Part shown: positions 1 to 9,870 of the stretch, piece after piece
Layout: each line of letters starts with the position of its first letter
Numbering within the stretch: position 1 is the first letter of the stretch
Source of the DNA: Dysgonamonadaceae bacterium
GTDB taxonomy: Bacteria; Bacteroidota; Bacteroidia; Bacteroidales; Azobacteroidaceae
DNA: 10,274 bases
Assembly: GCA_031261015.1 (NCBI GenBank)
Contig: JAISKG010000104.1
Location: 1-10,274 of the forward strand
Direction: 5' to 3'
The notes under the pieces: generated by a model
What the model saw: the letters and a program-made list of their open reading frames with translations, nothing else
What the model was told of the DNA's origin: nothing
Databases searched by the model: none
Program-made: the position numbers and the translations under genes

Positions 1-566
1 AAGAAATTTATCTCAAATGATATTGTTGTTTATACAATAAATTATGGACTTTGTCAGAAAGAAAATATTATTTTTGAAGATGTTTCTAATCGTAAATATA
101 GAATAGAGAGAGTTTTTGATTATAATAAACTTGTTGAAGAATGGGCAAATAGTTCAGCATATGTTAAATGTAGAAATTGTGGAACAGAGTACGATATAAC
201 GGATTGGGAAAAATAAAGGAATTTAATTGTTTGTGTAAGAACTGTAATACTTTTAATTGTGAATTAGTAAGTCAAATTAACACGAAACAACGAAATGATT
301 ATTTAGGGTGTGACGTAGATGAAATACGCAATGTTAATCTCAAAAACGAACAATTGAGAATAATTCATTGCTTACATATTGAAGATAAATTAAGCGAATC
401 TTTAATAGCAAGTGAATTAGATTGTTCTCCGGAAACAGCAAGAGCATATCTAAGAAGTGATAGAAAATTAAGAATAGATGGGTATATTATCAAAAATGAA
501 AATAGTAACACATATTCTGTAACTCAAAAAGCAGAACAAGAACTTTATAACAATGGCACTAACTAA
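1..566 (+). pseudogene. Zinc-ribbon / winged-helix protein, 5' partial, frameshifted
   Basis: This is the C-terminal part of a gene that begins before the window. Frame 1 is open from base 1 and ends at TAA 214-216, after a CRNCGTEYD half zinc-ribbon. The matching half (NCLCKNCNTFNCEL) continues in another frame to the stop at 564-566. Restoring one A in the A-run at 209-213 would join them as ...DWEKIKEFNC..., giving a CxxC...CxCxxC metal site followed by a winged-helix-like domain (around SLIASELDCSPETARAYL). The most likely reading is a one-base deletion or an assembly error. The layout, zinc ribbon then wHTH at the C-terminus, recalls the tails of defence-associated ORC/CDC6-like AAA ATPases, but the ATPase part would lie outside the window, so this is only a suggestion. 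The 3' end overlaps the restriction gene by 14 bp, so the two are probably co-transcribed and translationally coupled. The base composition is AT-rich, like the next gene. Confidence 0.6.
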
Positions 567-1608
567 CGAACAAAAAGAAAAAATCTCAATTGAAGTCATT
601 AAAACTTTGGTAACAAGATTTGACAGTTTCCCAGAGGATGCTTCAAACAATCGTAATGCACCATTCCACGAAGCTTTTCTAAATGCATTTGCCGATAAAT
701 TAGCAGGAAAAGTCTCTGACACTCCGTTTTTTATCAGTTTAAGCAGTTGGCTGCAAGGCTTAAATACTACATTAGGGCAAACTTTTTTTGAGAACGTGGC
801 ACACATTCTTTGTAACGGCGAAAAACGGGAATACACTTCAAAGAAGAAAGGGAATCTTCAAATCACTCAATTGCAACAAGATTCTCTGACAAATATTATT
901 ATAAACCTCAGTAATTCGACTGCTGTTCCTAATCTATTTGAAGAAAATAGAAACTTGTTGCAAGACGATAATACTGCATTGGTAACAGCCATGGATTTTT
1001 CTGCTGATGTATTTTATGAGACAGACGACTCTGTTGTTGCAATAGAATTAAAATCGGTTAAACCAAATTCAGGCGAAATGAGAGGTGAGAAACAAAAAAT
1101 ACTATCAGGTAAATCTGCATTATTCCACCTTTTCCCTAATAAGCAAATCAAATTTTACATTGGTTTTCCCTTTGACCCAACCGTCAATCCGGAACAAGAA
1201 TCTGTAACAAGCTATGACAAAAATCGTTTTCTTGGTTCTATCATAAATATGAATAAATATTTTGCCCATGACGAAACACTTGTAGCAAGTGAATTATGGG
1301 ATTTCTTATCTGGACAAGAACATACGATGGAAGACATTCTTGCAATAATCAACACCATTTCTACAACAGCATTTTTAGATAAATTTCGATTACTCACTGA
1401 CAATTCAAAAAGATTGACTCCAGAATATCTTGCTCAATTACAAGAATGGAATTTGTTTTCCGAAAAAGAACTCATTGTTAATAATGCCATACTAATTAGA
1501 AAAATTGCAGGAAATGCTACTTTATCAAGGATTTATAACAAAACGGCTTTTGATAATGACGGAAAATATGTTTGGGAACGATATAATACATTGAAAAATT
1601 TATTGTAG
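553..1608 (+). CDS. TdeIII-family type II restriction endonuclease
   Basis: This 351-residue protein resembles the TdeIII family of type II restriction endonucleases, whose namesake is recorded as recognising GGNCC. The catalytic region is visible: D152 in the FSADVFY strand, then E165-L-K167 in VVAIELKSVKPNSGE, a PD-(D/E)xK arrangement followed by the conserved-looking GEMRGEKQKIL stretch at about 174-184. The N-terminal 150 residues are helical and probably contribute to DNA recognition or dimerisation. The ATG at 553 lies inside the end of the preceding gene and has no strong Shine-Dalgarno sequence, which suits translational coupling. The reading frame is complete and ends with TAG directly followed by TGA. 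A type II enzyme needs a partner methyltransferase to protect host DNA. None is seen downstream, so it would have to lie upstream of the window or be lost. The family call rests on recalled similarity around the active site; the exact recognition sequence cannot be read from the protein. Confidence 0.85.
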   Translation: MALTNEQKEKISIEVIKTLVTRFDSFPEDASNNRNAPFHEAFLNAFADKLAGKVSDTPFFISLSSWLQGLNTTLGQTFFENVAHILCNGEKREYTSKKKGNLQITQLQQDSLTNIIINLSNSTAVPNLFEENRNLLQDDNTALVTAMDFSADVFYETDDSVVAIELKSVKPNSGEMRGEKQKILSGKSALFHLFPNKQIKFYIGFPFDPTVNPEQESVTSYDKNRFLGSIINMNKYFAHDETLVASELWDFLSGQEHTMEDILAIINTISTTAFLDKFRLLTDNSKRLTPEYLAQLQEWNLFSEKELIVNNAILIRKIAGNATLSRIYNKTAFDNDGKYVWERYNTLKNLL

Positions 1609-2704: not shown

Positions 2705-4354
2705 ATGGTAGAAAAATATATTTCTCAGACTAATTTCAAAGATCAGGAAGATTTTAAGGCGAATTTTAAAATCAACGTCCCGGAAAATTTTAATTTCGCT
2801 TACGATGTGGTGGACGAATGGGCGCGGATCGAACCGAATAAGAAAGCATTATGCTGGGTCAACGATCAAGGCGAACATCACGAATTTACATTCAAAGATA
2901 TTCAGGAACAAAGCGATGCGGCAGCTTCTTATTTTCAATCGCTCGGCATCGGCAAAGGCGATAAAGTGATGTTAATTTTGAAACGTCGTTATTGGTACTG
3001 GTTTGCCGTCACCGGTTTGCATAAAATCGGCGCCGTGGCGATTCCGGCTACGCATTTGTTGACGAAAAAAGATATTATTTACCGTTGCCAATCGGCGGAT
3101 ATAAAAGCGATTGTGAGTGTTGGGGAATCGCCTGTCACTCAACAAATTGATGCGGCTTTACCCGAATCGCCAACCTTGAAATACCGCATTTCCATCGGTC
3201 CGGATATTCCCGAAGGCTGGCTGGATTTCCGCAAAGGCTTGGCGGATGCGCAACCGTTTGTAAAACCGGAAAATCCCAGCAGCAACGACGATATTATGTT
3301 ACTGTATTTCACTTCAGGAACAACCGGTAATCCGAAAATGGTGATCCATAATTTTGTTTATCCCTTAGGACATATTGTCACGGCCGGTTATTGGCAAAAC
3401 TTGAACGCCGACAGTTTACACCTCACAGTGGCCGATACCGGATGGGCGAAAGCGGCTTGGGGAAAATTGTACGGACAATGGATCATGGGCGCTTGTATTT
3501 TCGTTTATGATCATGAAAAATTTGCGGCGGCCGATTTATTGAAAGTGATTCAGGATTATAAAGTTACGTCGTTTTGTGCGCCGCCGACCGTATATCGTTT
3601 TATGATTTTGGAAGATTTACGCAAATATGATTTGTCATCGTTACAATATTGCGAAGTGGCCGGCGAACCGTTAAATCCTTCCGTATTTGATACTTTCTAC
3701 CAAGCCACCGGATTGAAATTGATGGAAGGCTTCGGGCAAACGGAAACGACGGTGACAATCGCTAATTTCCCATGGATGAATCCGAAACCGGGTTCGATGG
3801 GCTTGCCGAATCCGGCTTATGATATGGATTTGATTACGTTGGACGGACGAAGCGCGGAAGACGGCGAACAGGGCGAAATTATTTTCCGCACCGATCGCCT
3901 TATGCCGGTCGGCTTGTTTATGGGTTATTACCGCGATAAAGAATTAACCGATAGCGTTTATGCCGACAATATTTATCACACGGGCGATATTGCGTGGCGC
4001 GATGAGGACGGTTATTACTGGTTTGTCGGACGAAACGACGACGTGATCAAAAGTTCCGGTTACCGTATTGGCCCGTTTGAAGTAGAAAGCGCGTTAATGA
4101 CACATCCGGCGGTCGTAGAATGTGCCATTACGGGCGTTCCTGATGAAGTGCGCGGGCAAGTGGTGAAAGCGACGATCATTTTGGCGGCTTCTTACAAGGA
4201 AAAAGCCGGTTCCGAATTGATCAAGGAAATCCAAAATCATGTGAAGCAAATTACGGCTCCTTATAAATATCCGCGGATTATTGAGTTTGTGGAAGAATTA
4301 CCGAAAACGATTAGCGGAAAGATACGGAGAGTGCAGATTCGGGAAGAGAAGTGA
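2705..4354 (+). CDS. AMP-forming acyl-CoA synthetase (medium-chain / ACSM-like)
   Basis: This complete 549-residue adenylate-forming enzyme activates a carboxylic acid with ATP to acyl-AMP, then to acyl-CoA, in the cytoplasm. The hallmark motifs are present in order: the phosphate-binding loop [11 protein letters not shown] (201-211), the A5 motif GFGQTETT (342-349), YHTGD (424-428), [16 protein letters not shown] (442-457), and the catalytic lysine K539 in SGKIRR near the C-terminus. That lysine is the one acetylated to switch off many family members. Overall spacing and the phrases VAGEPLNP and PGSMGLPNP fit the medium-chain (ACSM-like) branch better than classical acetyl-CoA synthetase, which is about 100 residues longer. 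The substrate cannot be read from sequence; short or medium-chain, branched or aromatic acids are all possible. It is the second gene of a two-gene operon with the XRE-cupin regulator. Its stop is 2 bp from the stop of the convergent lipoprotein gene. Confidence 0.9.
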
Positions 4355-4356
4355 AT

Positions 4357-5046
4357 TTATTGTAAATGAACAGATACGGGAAGCGTGTAATACACATCCA
4401 CATTCTTGCCGTTCTGTTTGCCGGGAATCCATCGCGGCATGATTTTGATGACCCGCACCGCTTCTTTATCAAGCGCAGGATGCGCACTCCGAACAATCTC
4501 CGGATTAATAATCTCGCCTTCCGACGTGACGATGAAACGGACAACAACTCGTCCTCCGGAAACTCCTGTTTCGTAACAGGTTACGGCAGGGAAATTTATA
4601 TTATCGGACAAAAATTTCATCAATTCTCTATCTCCACCGGGGAATTGAGGCATCTGCTCTACATGATTATATATCCGGATCGTATCCGGTTTCGGTTCGG
4701 GAATAGGCTCATAACACGAGATAACAGATTCTATGACAGGCATTGAGTCAATGGCAACTTCTCTCATTTCTATTGTCGTATTGATAACCGCCGGCCGGAC
4801 AATTTCCTGCGTATCTTGTGGCACTGCAGGCTCATAACACATGATAGGTTCAATCGTGTCTTGCGGGAGCGCCGGCTCGTAACAAACGGCTTGCATCGTT
4901 TTTTTGTTAGTACAAGACGTGGCCGACAAACCGAGAATCAACGTTCCTAAAAGCAGTTTGTACTTGGCAAACAGCGGAAATCCATTCGTTTTATCGGATA
5001 AAAACGAAAATACACGGAATAAAAGGCGGTAAGATTTTGTTTTCAT
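4357..5046 (-). CDS. TonB-domain lipoprotein with repeated CYEP motifs
   Basis: This 229-residue protein begins with an unusually long basic and polar N-terminal stretch (1-29), then a hydrophobic segment KLLLGTLILGLSATSC ending in a plausible lipobox with Cys45. The linker (46-125) carries three near-identical motifs: CYEPALPQDT (55-64), CYEPAVPQDT (70-79) and CYEPIPEPKPDT (111-122). The C-terminal TonB domain (about 128-229) has the classic PQFPGG, LDKEAVRVIK, W-IPGKQNGK and YTLPV signatures, and holds a fourth Cys-Tyr-Glu at 157-159 where relatives usually read roughly AQEKG. TonB C-terminal domains contact outer-membrane receptors; with a lipid anchor this one may not be a standard ExbBD-coupled transducer. 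I chose the ATG at 5044-5046, because an upstream ATG at 5196 would add 50 residues lying over the radical SAM gene. The start is 11 bp after the stop of that gene, so the two are co-transcribed. Hypothesis: its Cys-Tyr motifs are substrates of that enzyme. Confidence 0.85.
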   Translation of the reverse strand: MKTKSYRLLFRVFSFLSDKTNGFPLFAKYKLLLGTLILGLSATSCTNKKTMQAVCYEPALPQDTIEPIMCYEPAVPQDTQEIVRPAVINTTIEMREVAIDSMPVIESVISCYEPIPEPKPDTIRIYNHVEQMPQFPGGDRELMKFLSDNINFPAVTCYETGVSGGRVVVRFIVTSEGEIINPEIVRSAHPALDKEAVRVIKIMPRWIPGKQNGKNVDVYYTLPVSVHLQ

Positions 5047-5057
5047 ACTATATAATG

Positions 5058-6062
5058 TTAATTGATTTTCGTTGTTAATATCGGATCCACCTGGCTCAAT
5101 CCCAAGCCGCACTGCTCGGAAGCTGCACGACAACCACCTTTGCATTTTTCCCAAAGATCGCAGACAGCGCAATAGGCGGGCACAATTTCTTTCCACGACA
5201 GGGAATAAGGCGAATAAAGGATTTCGCTCAATTCCTGCTCAAAAATATTTCCTGCTTTCACCGGTGAATGATTACAAAGGCGAATATCGCCGTTGACGTC
5301 CACCGTAATCGGTTTTCTTAGAGGATTATCCGAACAGTTGCCAAACATCAGACGGGGATAATCGGAAGGCTTCAGCAAACATTGCGGTGTGCAGACATTG
5401 GACGAAATCGTCAGACTTAAAGTTTCCGATTTTTGATTGGCAACGTGATAAGCAGCAATCAGTTGCTCGTGCGTAGCCGAAACCGAAGCCGGATCGGCCG
5501 TCCCGTTGCCGCCGATGTTGTAACGGTTCAACATAATTCGTTGAATTCCAATGCTGTGAATATAATCCAACGTTTCGTTCAATTCCGCAACATTGAATTT
5601 TGTCAATACGATCACTGCCACCGGATAACCGCCTAATCGTTTGATTTCCAACAAAGAATGAACAGATTTTTGCCAACTGCCTTTCATTTGCGTGATACTG
5701 TCGTGAATGGCAGGATCGGCCGAATGAATCGGCATTTCAAACAAACGTACGCCCATGTTTATAAGCTGTTTATAATCTGCCGGCGTACCCAGTGAACCAT
5801 TGCTGATGATGGCGACCGATTTTCCTTCCATTCGGCAAAAGAGGACGATTTCGAGCAAGCGTTCCGCCATAAACGGTTCGCCTCCTGTCAGTGTCACTTG
5901 TTCGATCGGAGCTTGTTTGAATATCTGTTTCAGTACTTTAATCGCTTTCTTGTAGGAATTGAATGTTTGGCGTTCCGCTCCCGGAATTTTCCAGATATTG
6001 TAACAATATTTACACGACAGGTTGCATTTGTCGGTTAATTCAACGGTGATATGGGTGAGCAT
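5058..6062 (-). CDS. Radical SAM / SPASM-domain peptide-modifying-type enzyme
   Basis: This 334-residue radical SAM enzyme has the cluster motif CNLSCKYC (Cys13, 17, 20), which holds the 4Fe-4S cluster that cleaves S-adenosylmethionine. TLTGGEPF (57-64) is the SAM-binding GGE motif, and IISNGS and further strands complete the partial barrel. The C-terminal third has a SPASM-type cysteine set: C243, then C263 in VNGDIRLCNH, then C298-xx-C301, C307-xxx-C311 and C318, suited to carry auxiliary 4Fe-4S clusters. SPASM enzymes such as AlbA, PqqE, MftC and anaerobic sulfatase maturases act on peptides or proteins. No small RiPP precursor or sulfatase is seen nearby. The closest candidate substrate is the CYEP-repeat lipoprotein 11 bp downstream. 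The start at 6062 places the cluster motif at the usual N-terminal position; the Shine-Dalgarno sequence is weak. The gene follows the AspRS stop by 41 bp and is probably read from the same transcript. Confidence 0.9.
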   Translation of the reverse strand: MLTHITVELTDKCNLSCKYCYNIWKIPGAERQTFNSYKKAIKVLKQIFKQAPIEQVTLTGGEPFMAERLLEIVLFCRMEGKSVAIISNGSLGTPADYKQLINMGVRLFEMPIHSADPAIHDSITQMKGSWQKSVHSLLEIKRLGGYPVAVIVLTKFNVAELNETLDYIHSIGIQRIMLNRYNIGGNGTADPASVSATHEQLIAAYHVANQKSETLSLTISSNVCTPQCLLKPSDYPRLMFGNCSDNPLRKPITVDVNGDIRLCNHSPVKAGNIFEQELSEILYSPYSLSWKEIVPAYCAVCDLWEKCKGGCRAASEQCGLGLSQVDPILTTKIN

Positions 6063-7992: not shown

Positions 7993-9870
7993 TTATGGCT
8001 GATAAATGTGCCAAACTATCATGCTTTTTTCTTCCGAATTGATTCCATTCGATACGGAGAAGACCATTTTCATGGCTTTGAGATAGCCGTTTAGATCTTC
8101 TTGTGGAACAGCCGGCGAAGTCAAGAGGTAGCTCAACGGAGCGCCACCGGGTTGTCCGGGAATTACTCCGAATAAACCTTCCGATCCTTCAAATTTGGCG
8201 TAGGAAACGCCGGATACCATAGTTCGATAAGCAATAAGGTTAGCGCTGGCCGGTGTCCACTTGACATAAAACGGAACGACTGCGGGAGTTAAGGGCTGAC
8301 TGAATGTAGAAATAATTTCCAAGTCCGACATCGGATCGCCTACATCATAGCCACCTCCTGCTTTCGGTAGTGCATGAAGAATTGTAATACTAACTCCTTC
8401 TAAAGTATTTTGTTCCACGAGCACCGTATAGCGCAAGCGGCCGGCGGCAAAAATAATTTTAGCGGTTCGCGTACTTCCGCTTGGATTATTTTGATCGAGG
8501 TACAAAACGACTTTAGCCGTGTCTTTGGCGGCTCCGCTGGTGCAGGAAGTCGTCAACCAGGTAGCTGTAGTTCCGGTATCGGTATCTGTGATTCCGTCGA
8601 TATACCAACCGGAAGTTCCCGATTGGGAAATGTAATCAGTCAACACATACAGCACGTTATGTGGCCGTTCGACCGTCAATGCTTCGCGAGGAAAATTAAA
8701 TTCGCTTTTGCTGACTTTCAAGAAATATTGTCCGTCGAGAACGATATTTCCCCAGCCGGCGGCATCCCATTCCAAAATTTCGGTTTGCAGGTTCACAGCT
8801 TTGCCGTTAAAGGCCAATTCTGCAGTTTCGTGTCCCGAACCGCCGACGTTGGTGATATTGACCGTATATTCGTGGTTGCGCAGAATGGACTTGTGCGTCG
8901 TACCGTTATCGTTCATGAAATCGACTCGGTAATAAGTTGTTTGTGAATCGGTTCCGTAAACGCCACCGATAACCAGGCAAGTTGTTTGACTGGGATCTTC
9001 CACAGCCGTCGCTTCAAACGTATAAATCGAGCCACGGATGGCTACGTCGGTTTTTCCCGGAGCGGTAAAATCTTCATAGACAAGCGGTCCGAAAAAACGT
9101 TTGCTGTAATCGGTGATGCTTGCAGGAATAGTTGGCTCCACGCCGATATTTCCTTCAGGAACGATGCGGCCTTTGGTATTGGTATTGTAAAGACGAACGC
9201 TTTTGAGTTTGAATTTGCCTGTCAATCCGGAAACACTCTCGTCCACCTGCACATTGATGCGGGCAACCATCCGAAGCAAGGAAACCGTGCCGATCGAAGA
9301 AGATTGAAAGGTAATCGTGGCCGGCTCGCTCTCGCCCCACATTGGGAAAGTCGTGTAATTGGAAGCGCTCACGGTATTCCATGGATTGCCTTCGCCGAGC
9401 GAAAATTCAAGGGAAGCGAGCATCGTATTTTTTTCTACGTTTTTCCAATCGGAAGAAGTTAATAATTGTGTCACAGCCTCGCGTGCATTGGTGATCAGCA
9501 CAAAACGCTGGCGGTAAGATCTTGTCCAGACCGTGGCTTTGTAATTTTGCCGAGCGGCGCCGTTGGTGTTGCCTGCAGCTTCTCTGGCGGTGGCGGAATA
9601 ATCGAAATATTCCTTGCCGTCGTCGCCTACGCGAAAAGCCAGAATATCCAAGGTTTGAATCGTATTTTCTTCGGGAACGCCGATTGACCGCAGCGAAGAA
9701 GATTGATCCTGTTCGAAAGGTAAGGAAACGGGAATAGTGAAATCGGCAATGGCTTCACCTTTTTCATTACCCGAAATTCCGTCTAAATCCTCTTTACTAC
9801 ATGAATTAAGTCCTGTTAATGCTACAAATAAAATGCCCAAAATCCATCCGTTTTTTGCAATCTTTTTCAT
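7993..9870 (-). CDS. FimA/Mfa1-like fimbrillin lipoprotein with BACON-like domain
   Basis: This 625-residue exported lipoprotein has a signal peptide (1-23) with lipobox LNSC, giving lipidated Cys24. Residues about 40-180 and 185-375 look like the two beta-rich lobes of Bacteroidetes fimbrillins. Typical phrases are NTIQTLDILAFR (69-80), RQRFVLITNA (120-129), the LLRMVARINVQV strand (198-209), and LRNHEYTVNITNVGGSG near 330-346 followed by ...ILEWD. Residues about 386-487 resemble a BACON domain, a carbohydrate- or mucin-associated Ig-like fold: GWYIDG...WLTTS, then SGSTRTAKIIF...YTVLVEQ. The last ~135 residues are not recognised and may be a tip or adhesive module. Fimbrillin lipoproteins of this kind cross as lipoproteins to the surface, are trimmed by a protease, and polymerise. 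The combination and its place at the end of the gene cluster suggest a tip or accessory subunit, not the main shaft. It starts 51 bp after the neighbouring partial subunit gene. Confidence 0.75.
   Translation of the reverse strand: MKKIAKNGWILGILFVALTGLNSCSKEDLDGISGNEKGEAIADFTIPVSLPFEQDQSSSLRSIGVPEENTIQTLDILAFRVGDDGKEYFDYSATAREAAGNTNGAARQNYKATVWTRSYRQRFVLITNAREAVTQLLTSSDWKNVEKNTMLASLEFSLGEGNPWNTVSASNYTTFPMWGESEPATITFQSSSIGTVSLLRMVARINVQVDESVSGLTGKFKLKSVRLYNTNTKGRIVPEGNIGVEPTIPASITDYSKRFFGPLVYEDFTAPGKTDVAIRGSIYTFEATAVEDPSQTTCLVIGGVYGTDSQTTYYRVDFMNDNGTTHKSILRNHEYTVNITNVGGSGHETAELAFNGKAVNLQTEILEWDAAGWGNIVLDGQYFLKVSKSEFNFPREALTVERPHNVLYVLTDYISQSGTSGWYIDGITDTDTGTTATWLTTSCTSGAAKDTAKVVLYLDQNNPSGSTRTAKIIFAAGRLRYTVLVEQNTLEGVSITILHALPKAGGGYDVGDPMSDLEIISTFSQPLTPAVVPFYVKWTPASANLIAYRTMVSGVSYAKFEGSEGLFGVIPGQPGGAPLSYLLTSPAVPQEDLNGYLKAMKMVFSVSNGINSEEKSMIVWHIYQP

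Follow-up and report, generated by a model that had tools for sequence, protein, structure and literature searches.

The radical SAM/SPASM enzyme described here probably modifies Cys-Tyr (CY) pairs in envelope proteins that share an extended signal peptide, a reading drawn from comparative sequence analysis and given a probability of roughly 0.78. It is carried by the regular pairing of the enzyme gene with such a partner gene, by partner genes far from the enzyme whose products have both this signal peptide and CY, and by the fixity of CY itself, all of which are seen in the genomes compared. No description of this enzyme/CY-partner pair was recognised in the accessible portions of the open-licence literature. 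If the reading is true, radical SAM peptide chemistry would reach beyond small secreted peptides to anchored envelope proteins, and a signal peptide would serve as an address label for modification.

Gene order and partner protein

The window, a stretch of 10,274 nucleotides from a Dysgonamonadaceae bacterium (contig JAISKG010000104.1), carries on its minus strand, in 5' to 3' order, an aspS-like gene (7852-6104), the radical SAM/SPASM gene, and the partner gene (Table 1). Only 11 bp (5057-5047) separate the enzyme open reading frame from the partner ATG at 5046 (-). An earlier note on this DNA had described a SPASM-type radical SAM gene 11 bp ahead of a partner with three CYEP motifs, and open reading frames and Pfam confirm this arrangement; its list of motifs was correct for the three sites, two of them near-identical, and incomplete in that a fourth Cys-Tyr (CYET) had been overlooked. 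Elsewhere in the window are a TdeIII-type restriction endonuclease gene (553-1608 (+), Pfam 3.3e-60) and a gene for a fimbrial tip adhesin FimD/Mfa-like protein (7993-9870 (-), NCBIfam 67 bits, below the cut-off of 170), and an Rfam scan of the window gave 0 matches at gathering scores.

Table 1. Features of the enzyme and partner genes in the window
Feature	Position	Strand	Basis
Radical SAM/SPASM enzyme, 334 aa	5058..6062	-	ORF and Pfam
CX3CX2C radical SAM cluster motif, C13/C17/C20	6003..6026	-	Kept in 25/25 family enzymes
Proposed auxiliary-cluster cysteines C224, C228, C243, C263, C298, C301, C307, C311	5130..5393	-	Family conservation
Partner protein, 229 aa; stop codon ends at 4357	4357..5046	-	ORF and Pfam
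Extended signal peptide, residues 1-44, proposed leader, K-x3-G (K30, G34)	4915..5046	-	Comparison of partner types
CY site 1, C55-Y56, CYEPALPQDT	4879..4884	-	Sequence
CY site 2, C70-Y71, CYEPAVPQDT	4834..4839	-	Sequence
CY site 3, C111-Y112, CYEPIPEP	4711..4716	-	Sequence
CY site 4, C157-Y158, TCYETG, start of TonB_C region, loop before GRV	4573..4578	-	Sequence
TonB_C domain, residues 165-224, Pfam 1.4e-12	4375..4554	-	Pfam

The partner opens with 44 residues of signal-peptide region and a loosely fitting lipobox (ATSC, C45), followed by a proline-rich linker that bears CY and by a TonB_C domain. Tyr comes after four of its five cysteines, and shuffling the protein 200,000 times gave four or more CY only twice. 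The TonB_C loop ahead of GRV, where the fourth site lies, holds 8 of the 50 CY sites found in 20 leader-type TonB_C proteins. The partner is likely a lipoprotein, as the earlier note had it, judging from its lipobox; that label does not extend to a family-wide rule, because a lipobox candidate (a Cys without following Tyr, at most 16 residues from the leader end) is present in 47 of 58 leader-bearing relatives and AQ ends the signal peptide in some others. A second CY partner, with CYD, is present in the same genome (G000:C132, L086, about 3350-3852), where the leader and body lie in different frames, so that either the gene is broken or the assembly is wrong.

The enzyme family

The enzyme matches Radical_SAM (8.2e-22; 78.6 bits, cut-off 29.5) and SPASM (4.7e-06; 27.2 bits, cut-off 21.5) in Pfam. 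SPASM domains have the cysteine pattern CX9-15GX4C ... CX2CX5CX3C, and the enzyme fits it with C243-X14-G258-X4-C263 and C298-X2-C301-X5-C307-X3-C311, the cysteines of which are kept in 25 of 25 family enzymes. The seventh and last SPASM cysteine is not kept, with Cys at window-enzyme position 318 in 5 of 25, and a conserved pair, C224/C228, lies upstream of the SPASM cysteines. Among the proposed auxiliary-cluster cysteines, C224 is kept in 24 of 25 enzymes and the other seven in all 25.

The solved structures nearest by sequence are SkfB (5.9e-15, over the radical core) and PqqE (6c8v, 2.6e-13, near full length), both distant. None of the best 25 of 103 NCBIfam matches reached its cut-off, the top match scoring 81.6 bits against 400, and an existing NCBIfam equivalog was rejected on this ground. 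The family thus appears, from these comparisons, to fit no known family tested. A Pfam scan of the enzyme found no RRE, PqqD-like, or N-terminal recognition domain, the radical SAM match beginning at residue 7; guidance by a leader would therefore proceed without a visible receptor.

Partners beside the enzyme

Enzyme relatives at 40% identity or more were gathered by the enzyme alone, giving 28 distinct loci, of which 24 are assessable; outside the count are L011 and L035 (contig ends), L045 (a fragment that has no partner close by), and L113 (a remnant). A same-strand neighbour with Cys-Tyr is present in 23 of the 24 and with Cys-His in one (L106), and each of the 24 has at least one such C[Y/H] neighbour that matches a hidden Markov model (HMM) of the leader. 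This survey of neighbours had been set beforehand as a refutation test, and its outcome strongly supports both the pairing and the choice of CY as target that the earlier note had proposed. No partner was seen in L011 and G129/L035, where the enzyme stands at a contig end, or near the truncated enzyme of G070 on C277.

Partners often occur in tandem: L010 has seven CY proteins, L106 five CH proteins, L032 four partners, and L029, L036, and L039 three each. In L030 the CY protein adjoining the enzyme is a poor leader match (E 2), and the preceding protein has both CY and leader; in L010 the leader HMM passes over the two CY proteins closest to the enzyme and matches five others. L106 was considered as an enzyme without a partner and rejected as such after its frames were read (G696:C210, 3839-4998), which show five tandem tiny leader lipoproteins with TCH or SCH, Thr/Ser-Cys-His replacing Cys-Tyr. 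The enzyme of this locus departs from its family at two otherwise invariant positions (N182S and A313G).

The C-terminal parts of the partners differ, comprising TonB_C, an unnamed domain, short proteins free of domains, and two matches below Pfam cut-offs. The unnamed domain spans about 110 residues, is beta-rich by eye, and gave no Pfam match in the one protein tested; the short partners of L010 and L106 showed no domain in one of each tested; the L030 partner has an Ig-like match and the L109 partner a possible outer-membrane barrel, each under the Pfam cut-off. Along the enzyme tree the partner type switches and C[Y/H] stays constant. The idea that a TonB function lies at the heart of the system was rejected, as C[Y/H] neighbours of other kinds occur in 18 of the 24 loci, the TonB-type loci being the window, L029, L036, L037, L041, and L085 (the last judged by eye). 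The TonB-domain product proposed earlier is accordingly not general, the extended signal peptide being what the unlike partners have in common, and neither is CYEP a unit, since Cys-Tyr (Cys-His in one locus) is conserved and the third and fourth residues vary. As far as comparison of the loci indicates, neither the TonB domain nor CYEP is more than a local detail of the window pair.

Specificity of the Cys-Tyr pair

A search with the window partner gave 513 TonB_C homologues. Of the best 120, 21 carry the leader, and CY is present in 20 of these and in 0 of the 99 leaderless ones; leader calls by regular expression gave 19 of 20 and 1 of 100, and one protein (P0124) with a plain leader was reassigned by eye. 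The sole leader-type exception without CY is P0173. YY or SY stands at the expected CY position in P0139, P0167, and a protein of G906:C88. Homologues of the unnamed-domain partners carry CY in 87 of 88, a figure partly due to selection as the search used an alignment (A3) of CY partners in which C62/Y63 was fixed; the one without CY (P0326) is a short entry with a tail unlike the family.

A set of 58 leader proteins from 32 loci, some sharing a genome, was assembled with a leader HMM trained on 38 partners, most of them chosen by a CY filter, and CY is present in 53 and CH in five, all five from L106. The residue following a non-lipobox Cys in this set is Tyr 71 times, His 5 times, and any other residue 27 times; the five His comprise four in L106 and one in L108 (GCHTTCY), a fifth L106 site having been scored as a lipobox by the script. 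Of the 71 CY sites, 58 have T, M, or S immediately ahead of the pair and 36 have D or E immediately after it. A second, C-terminal CY (TCYF or TCYY) was observed in three lipobox-less partners (L033, 7572-8117; L030, 5464-5979; L149, 2212-2814).

The extended signal peptide and unlinked partners

In the proposed leader, two hydrophobic segments flank a short basic loop that contains K-x3-G, and the second segment runs up to a lipobox or to a site resembling that of signal peptidase I. In an alignment of 31 leader segments, only the K and G columns are invariant. This leader is common to partners with unlike C-terminal parts, such that the leader is constant and the cores vary, as in RiPP precursors.

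A leader profile that stops ahead of CY (A4) was run on 295 genomes of the window's order. It matches the window leader with an E value of 2.3e-11, the window segment being one of its own rows. At E<=5e-5, a threshold set after the list had been inspected, 14 of 295 genomes match. Thirteen of these have the enzyme; the fourteenth is G070, with its truncated enzyme on one contig and a CY partner on a different one (C816). The 281 genomes without an intact enzyme gave no match at this threshold other than G070. The matches in the 13 enzyme genomes arise by construction, because A4 holds rows from those 13, and a Fisher p value for co-occurrence of enzyme and leader (1e-20) was discarded as evidence, the profile having been built on those very genomes. 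Relaxing the threshold to E<=0.01 gives 22 matching genomes, 8 of them without the enzyme and with E values from 9e-5 to 0.0094; in seven of these eight weak matches (G182, G077, G275, G162, G263, G107, and G022) the stretches read after the leader hold no CY. The enzyme genome G129, with its enzyme at a contig end, gave no A4 match. A search of the window's genus with the leader profile found 2 of 38 genomes, the window's own and G906, in which an enzyme remnant is joined to a leader remnant and a surviving partner has one CY and YYEP in place of the CYEP of its relatives.

Several A4 matches lie far from the enzyme (G026:C102, G026:C326, G033:C169, two on G147:C13, G147:C26, one in G195 at 2.07 Mb, identical copies on C1 and C7 of G219, and G070:C816). 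All were read, and CY follows the leader in every one; the leader of the G033:C169 partner is broken by a stop. Eight same-strand CY proteins, including both A4 matches, stand in a row on G147:C13 (L149, G147:C13:116500-121500, positions 401-2814), so that G147 has ten CY partners at three places (eight on C13, one on C26, and one beside the enzyme) and one detected enzyme. Since the distant partners were found by a profile that ends before CY and all have CY, CY is likely the target and the signal peptide likely the leader. On this evidence one enzyme seems to serve many proteins.

Comparison with known systems

The closest parallel is TIGR04133 (rSAM_w_lipo). Like the window pair, it comprises a radical SAM enzyme beside lipoproteins with a Tyr motif at or just after the lipobox, and it occurs in the same genome, where two true members are found on other contigs (556 and 468 bits); unlike the window pair, it has a separate enzyme family, another motif, and another leader. 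Membership of the window enzyme was rejected, as it reaches 45.1 bits where 425 are required and its partner has no Y-G-x-P. That motif is carried by four lipoproteins beside three TIGR04133 matches in two genomes (EYGSP, LYGCP, MYGTP, and CYGTP), and its standing as a feature of TIGR04133 partners is inferred here from these four only. In the window's genome, two tandem lipoproteins on G000:C20 (L174) carry EYGSP and LYGCP, and one lipoprotein on G000:C123 (L175) has CYGTP at the lipobox. In L175 the lipobox Cys directly precedes YGTP, and CY is thus also possible in the TIGR04133 system. We know of no report on the chemistry of TIGR04133. Given the separate enzyme family and the different motif and leader, the system described here is new within a known kind of radical SAM/lipoprotein system, and if its proposed function is true it would hint at how the parallel TIGR04133 system works.

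The radical SAM enzyme QhpD introduces three Cys thioethers into periplasm-bound QhpC and requires a 28-residue leader, according to the accessible part of PMC7876137, and so resembles the proposed system in that a radical SAM enzyme crosslinks a periplasm-bound protein with a leader. It differs in joining Cys to Asp/Glu, in leader cleavage by the protease QhpE, and in export by the ABC transporter QhpF in place of a signal peptide. The QhpD family is absent among the best 25 of 103 NCBIfam matches to the enzyme, and the feature that would recall the Cys-to-Asp/Glu thioethers of QhpD, an acidic residue after CY, is too loose a preference (36 of 71 sites) to point either way.

PqqE and SkfB, the structural relatives named above, act on small peptides. 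The available part of PMC8326336 states that PqqE requires PqqD. In bufferins, as far as the accessible text of PMC12452194 goes, a Sec signal peptide replaces the leader, Cys is modified before export, and about 16% of Buf2 have lipoprotein signal peptides. Bufferins differ in having an MNIO superfamily enzyme, a separate partner protein, and copper-binding thiooxazoles, and MNIO/bufferin identity was rejected on the Radical_SAM and SPASM matches of the enzyme. The sequence data fit a maturase with leader-bearing precursors, the predicted leader being the signal peptide.

Proposed mechanism and alternatives

In the proposed mechanism, a cytoplasmic radical SAM/SPASM maturase would modify Cys-Tyr pairs of envelope proteins ahead of export, a timing that we infer from the fact that no signal peptide is seen in the enzyme. 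It would recognise its substrates by the shared extended signal peptide, in which K-x3-G closes the basic loop between two hydrophobic stretches; this peptide would double as leader and be removed by signal peptidase, mostly at the lipid-carrying cysteine. One enzyme would act on the products of neighbouring and distant partner genes, at between one and four CY pairs in each. CY would be its reaction site, and the leader would guide it. The fixed Cys and Tyr (His in one lineage) suggest that both residues matter, and the likeliest product would be a crosslink of the Cys sulphur to the adjacent Tyr or His or to a nearby residue; if the enzyme does act at CY, the odds of such a crosslink are about even. 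The thioether or tyrosine-derived crosslink put forward in the earlier note stands as a hypothesis. Some copper enzymes hold thioethers between Cys and Tyr or His; a Cys-Tyr/His thioether is conceivable from this precedent, which is no evidence for it. In its fullest form the proposal has a single enzyme forming Cys-Tyr crosslinks, or Cys-His crosslinks in one lineage, across a set of envelope proteins that are otherwise unrelated, with ten such proteins in one genome; the products of near and distant genes would be served alike, picked out by an extended Sec/lipoprotein signal peptide as common leader. This form is tentative, and we would lean somewhat against its holding in every part. If the main reading is right, a single enzyme with a short substrate would suffice to test the two-residue target, and nature supplies a Cys-His variant for comparison.

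Within the main reading, the enzyme might act at CY with no crosslink formed, either converting Cys to formylglycine or altering Tyr alone, the neighbouring residue then serving for recognition. Anaerobic sulfatase-maturating enzymes are SPASM enzymes that act on exported proteins and oxidise Cys to formylglycine; the structural match to 4k36/4k37 spans only profile positions 273-317. No fixed third partner residue is seen, given the variable residue after Tyr, and this too suits an outcome free of a crosslink. We nevertheless consider it unlikely, as Cys and Tyr/His are both fixed and a reaction at Cys only has no obvious need of Tyr at every site, and the formylglycine motif C/S-x-P/A-x-R is absent at the four CY sites of the window.

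The CY proteins might instead be carriers, or binders of a metal or cofactor, with a small molecule or cofactor made by the enzyme loaded on CY. PqqE, the nearest near-full-length structural match, serves a cofactor pathway, and bufferins bind copper through modified Cys (PMC12452194, accessible part); this account is improbable all the same, as reading of the locus frames, done non-systematically, brought no further shared biosynthetic gene to notice and the proteins that accompany the one enzyme are unlike each other. Chance pairing, or CY repeats left by a recent linker duplication, to which the two near-identical CYEPAxPQDT units among the four window sites might point, is very hard to credit against the 24 of 24 loci, the unlinked CY partners, and the shuffles.

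Distribution of the enzyme and related observations

A protein search found 630 enzyme homologues at E<=1e-30, and among the 120 listed are named Dysgonomonas, Parabacteroides, and Prevotellaceae records, which point to Bacteroidales as the probable order of the window. One homologue (P0035) belongs to Dysgonomonas hofstadii, a host that can be cultured. Occurrence is patchy, with 17 of 295 genomes of the window's order matching at E<=1e-40 (14 of those at E<=1e-80) and 19 of 393 at E<=1e-60 in a second, overlapping draw. The enzyme was found in 3 of 395 genomes in a draw of the phylum, where the three include that of the window itself and one with a distant enzyme, in 2 of 123 genomes of the order of G454, and in 2 of 38 genomes of the window's genus, one of these being a remnant. 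A plasmid search with the enzyme gave no match at E<=1e-30. One family enzyme (L011) lies on a contig labelled Spirochaetales, which is perhaps misassigned. The remnant in G906 (C44, L113, 1438-2166) has the partner leader fused directly to mid-enzyme sequence, as if by deletion of the remainder of both genes.

The counts exclude L002-L005, which are weaker matches at 25-38% identity within the genome of the window, and the distant enzymes L042-L044 and L048 (26-29% identity), which form a separate tree branch. At two of the latter loci (L043, 6955-8547; L044, 6951-7889) the radical SAM enzymes adjoin two-helix lipoproteins that share the motif YNYGF, the L044 lipoprotein having one CY only, in CYNYGF, and these loci possibly represent a third pairing of enzyme and motif.
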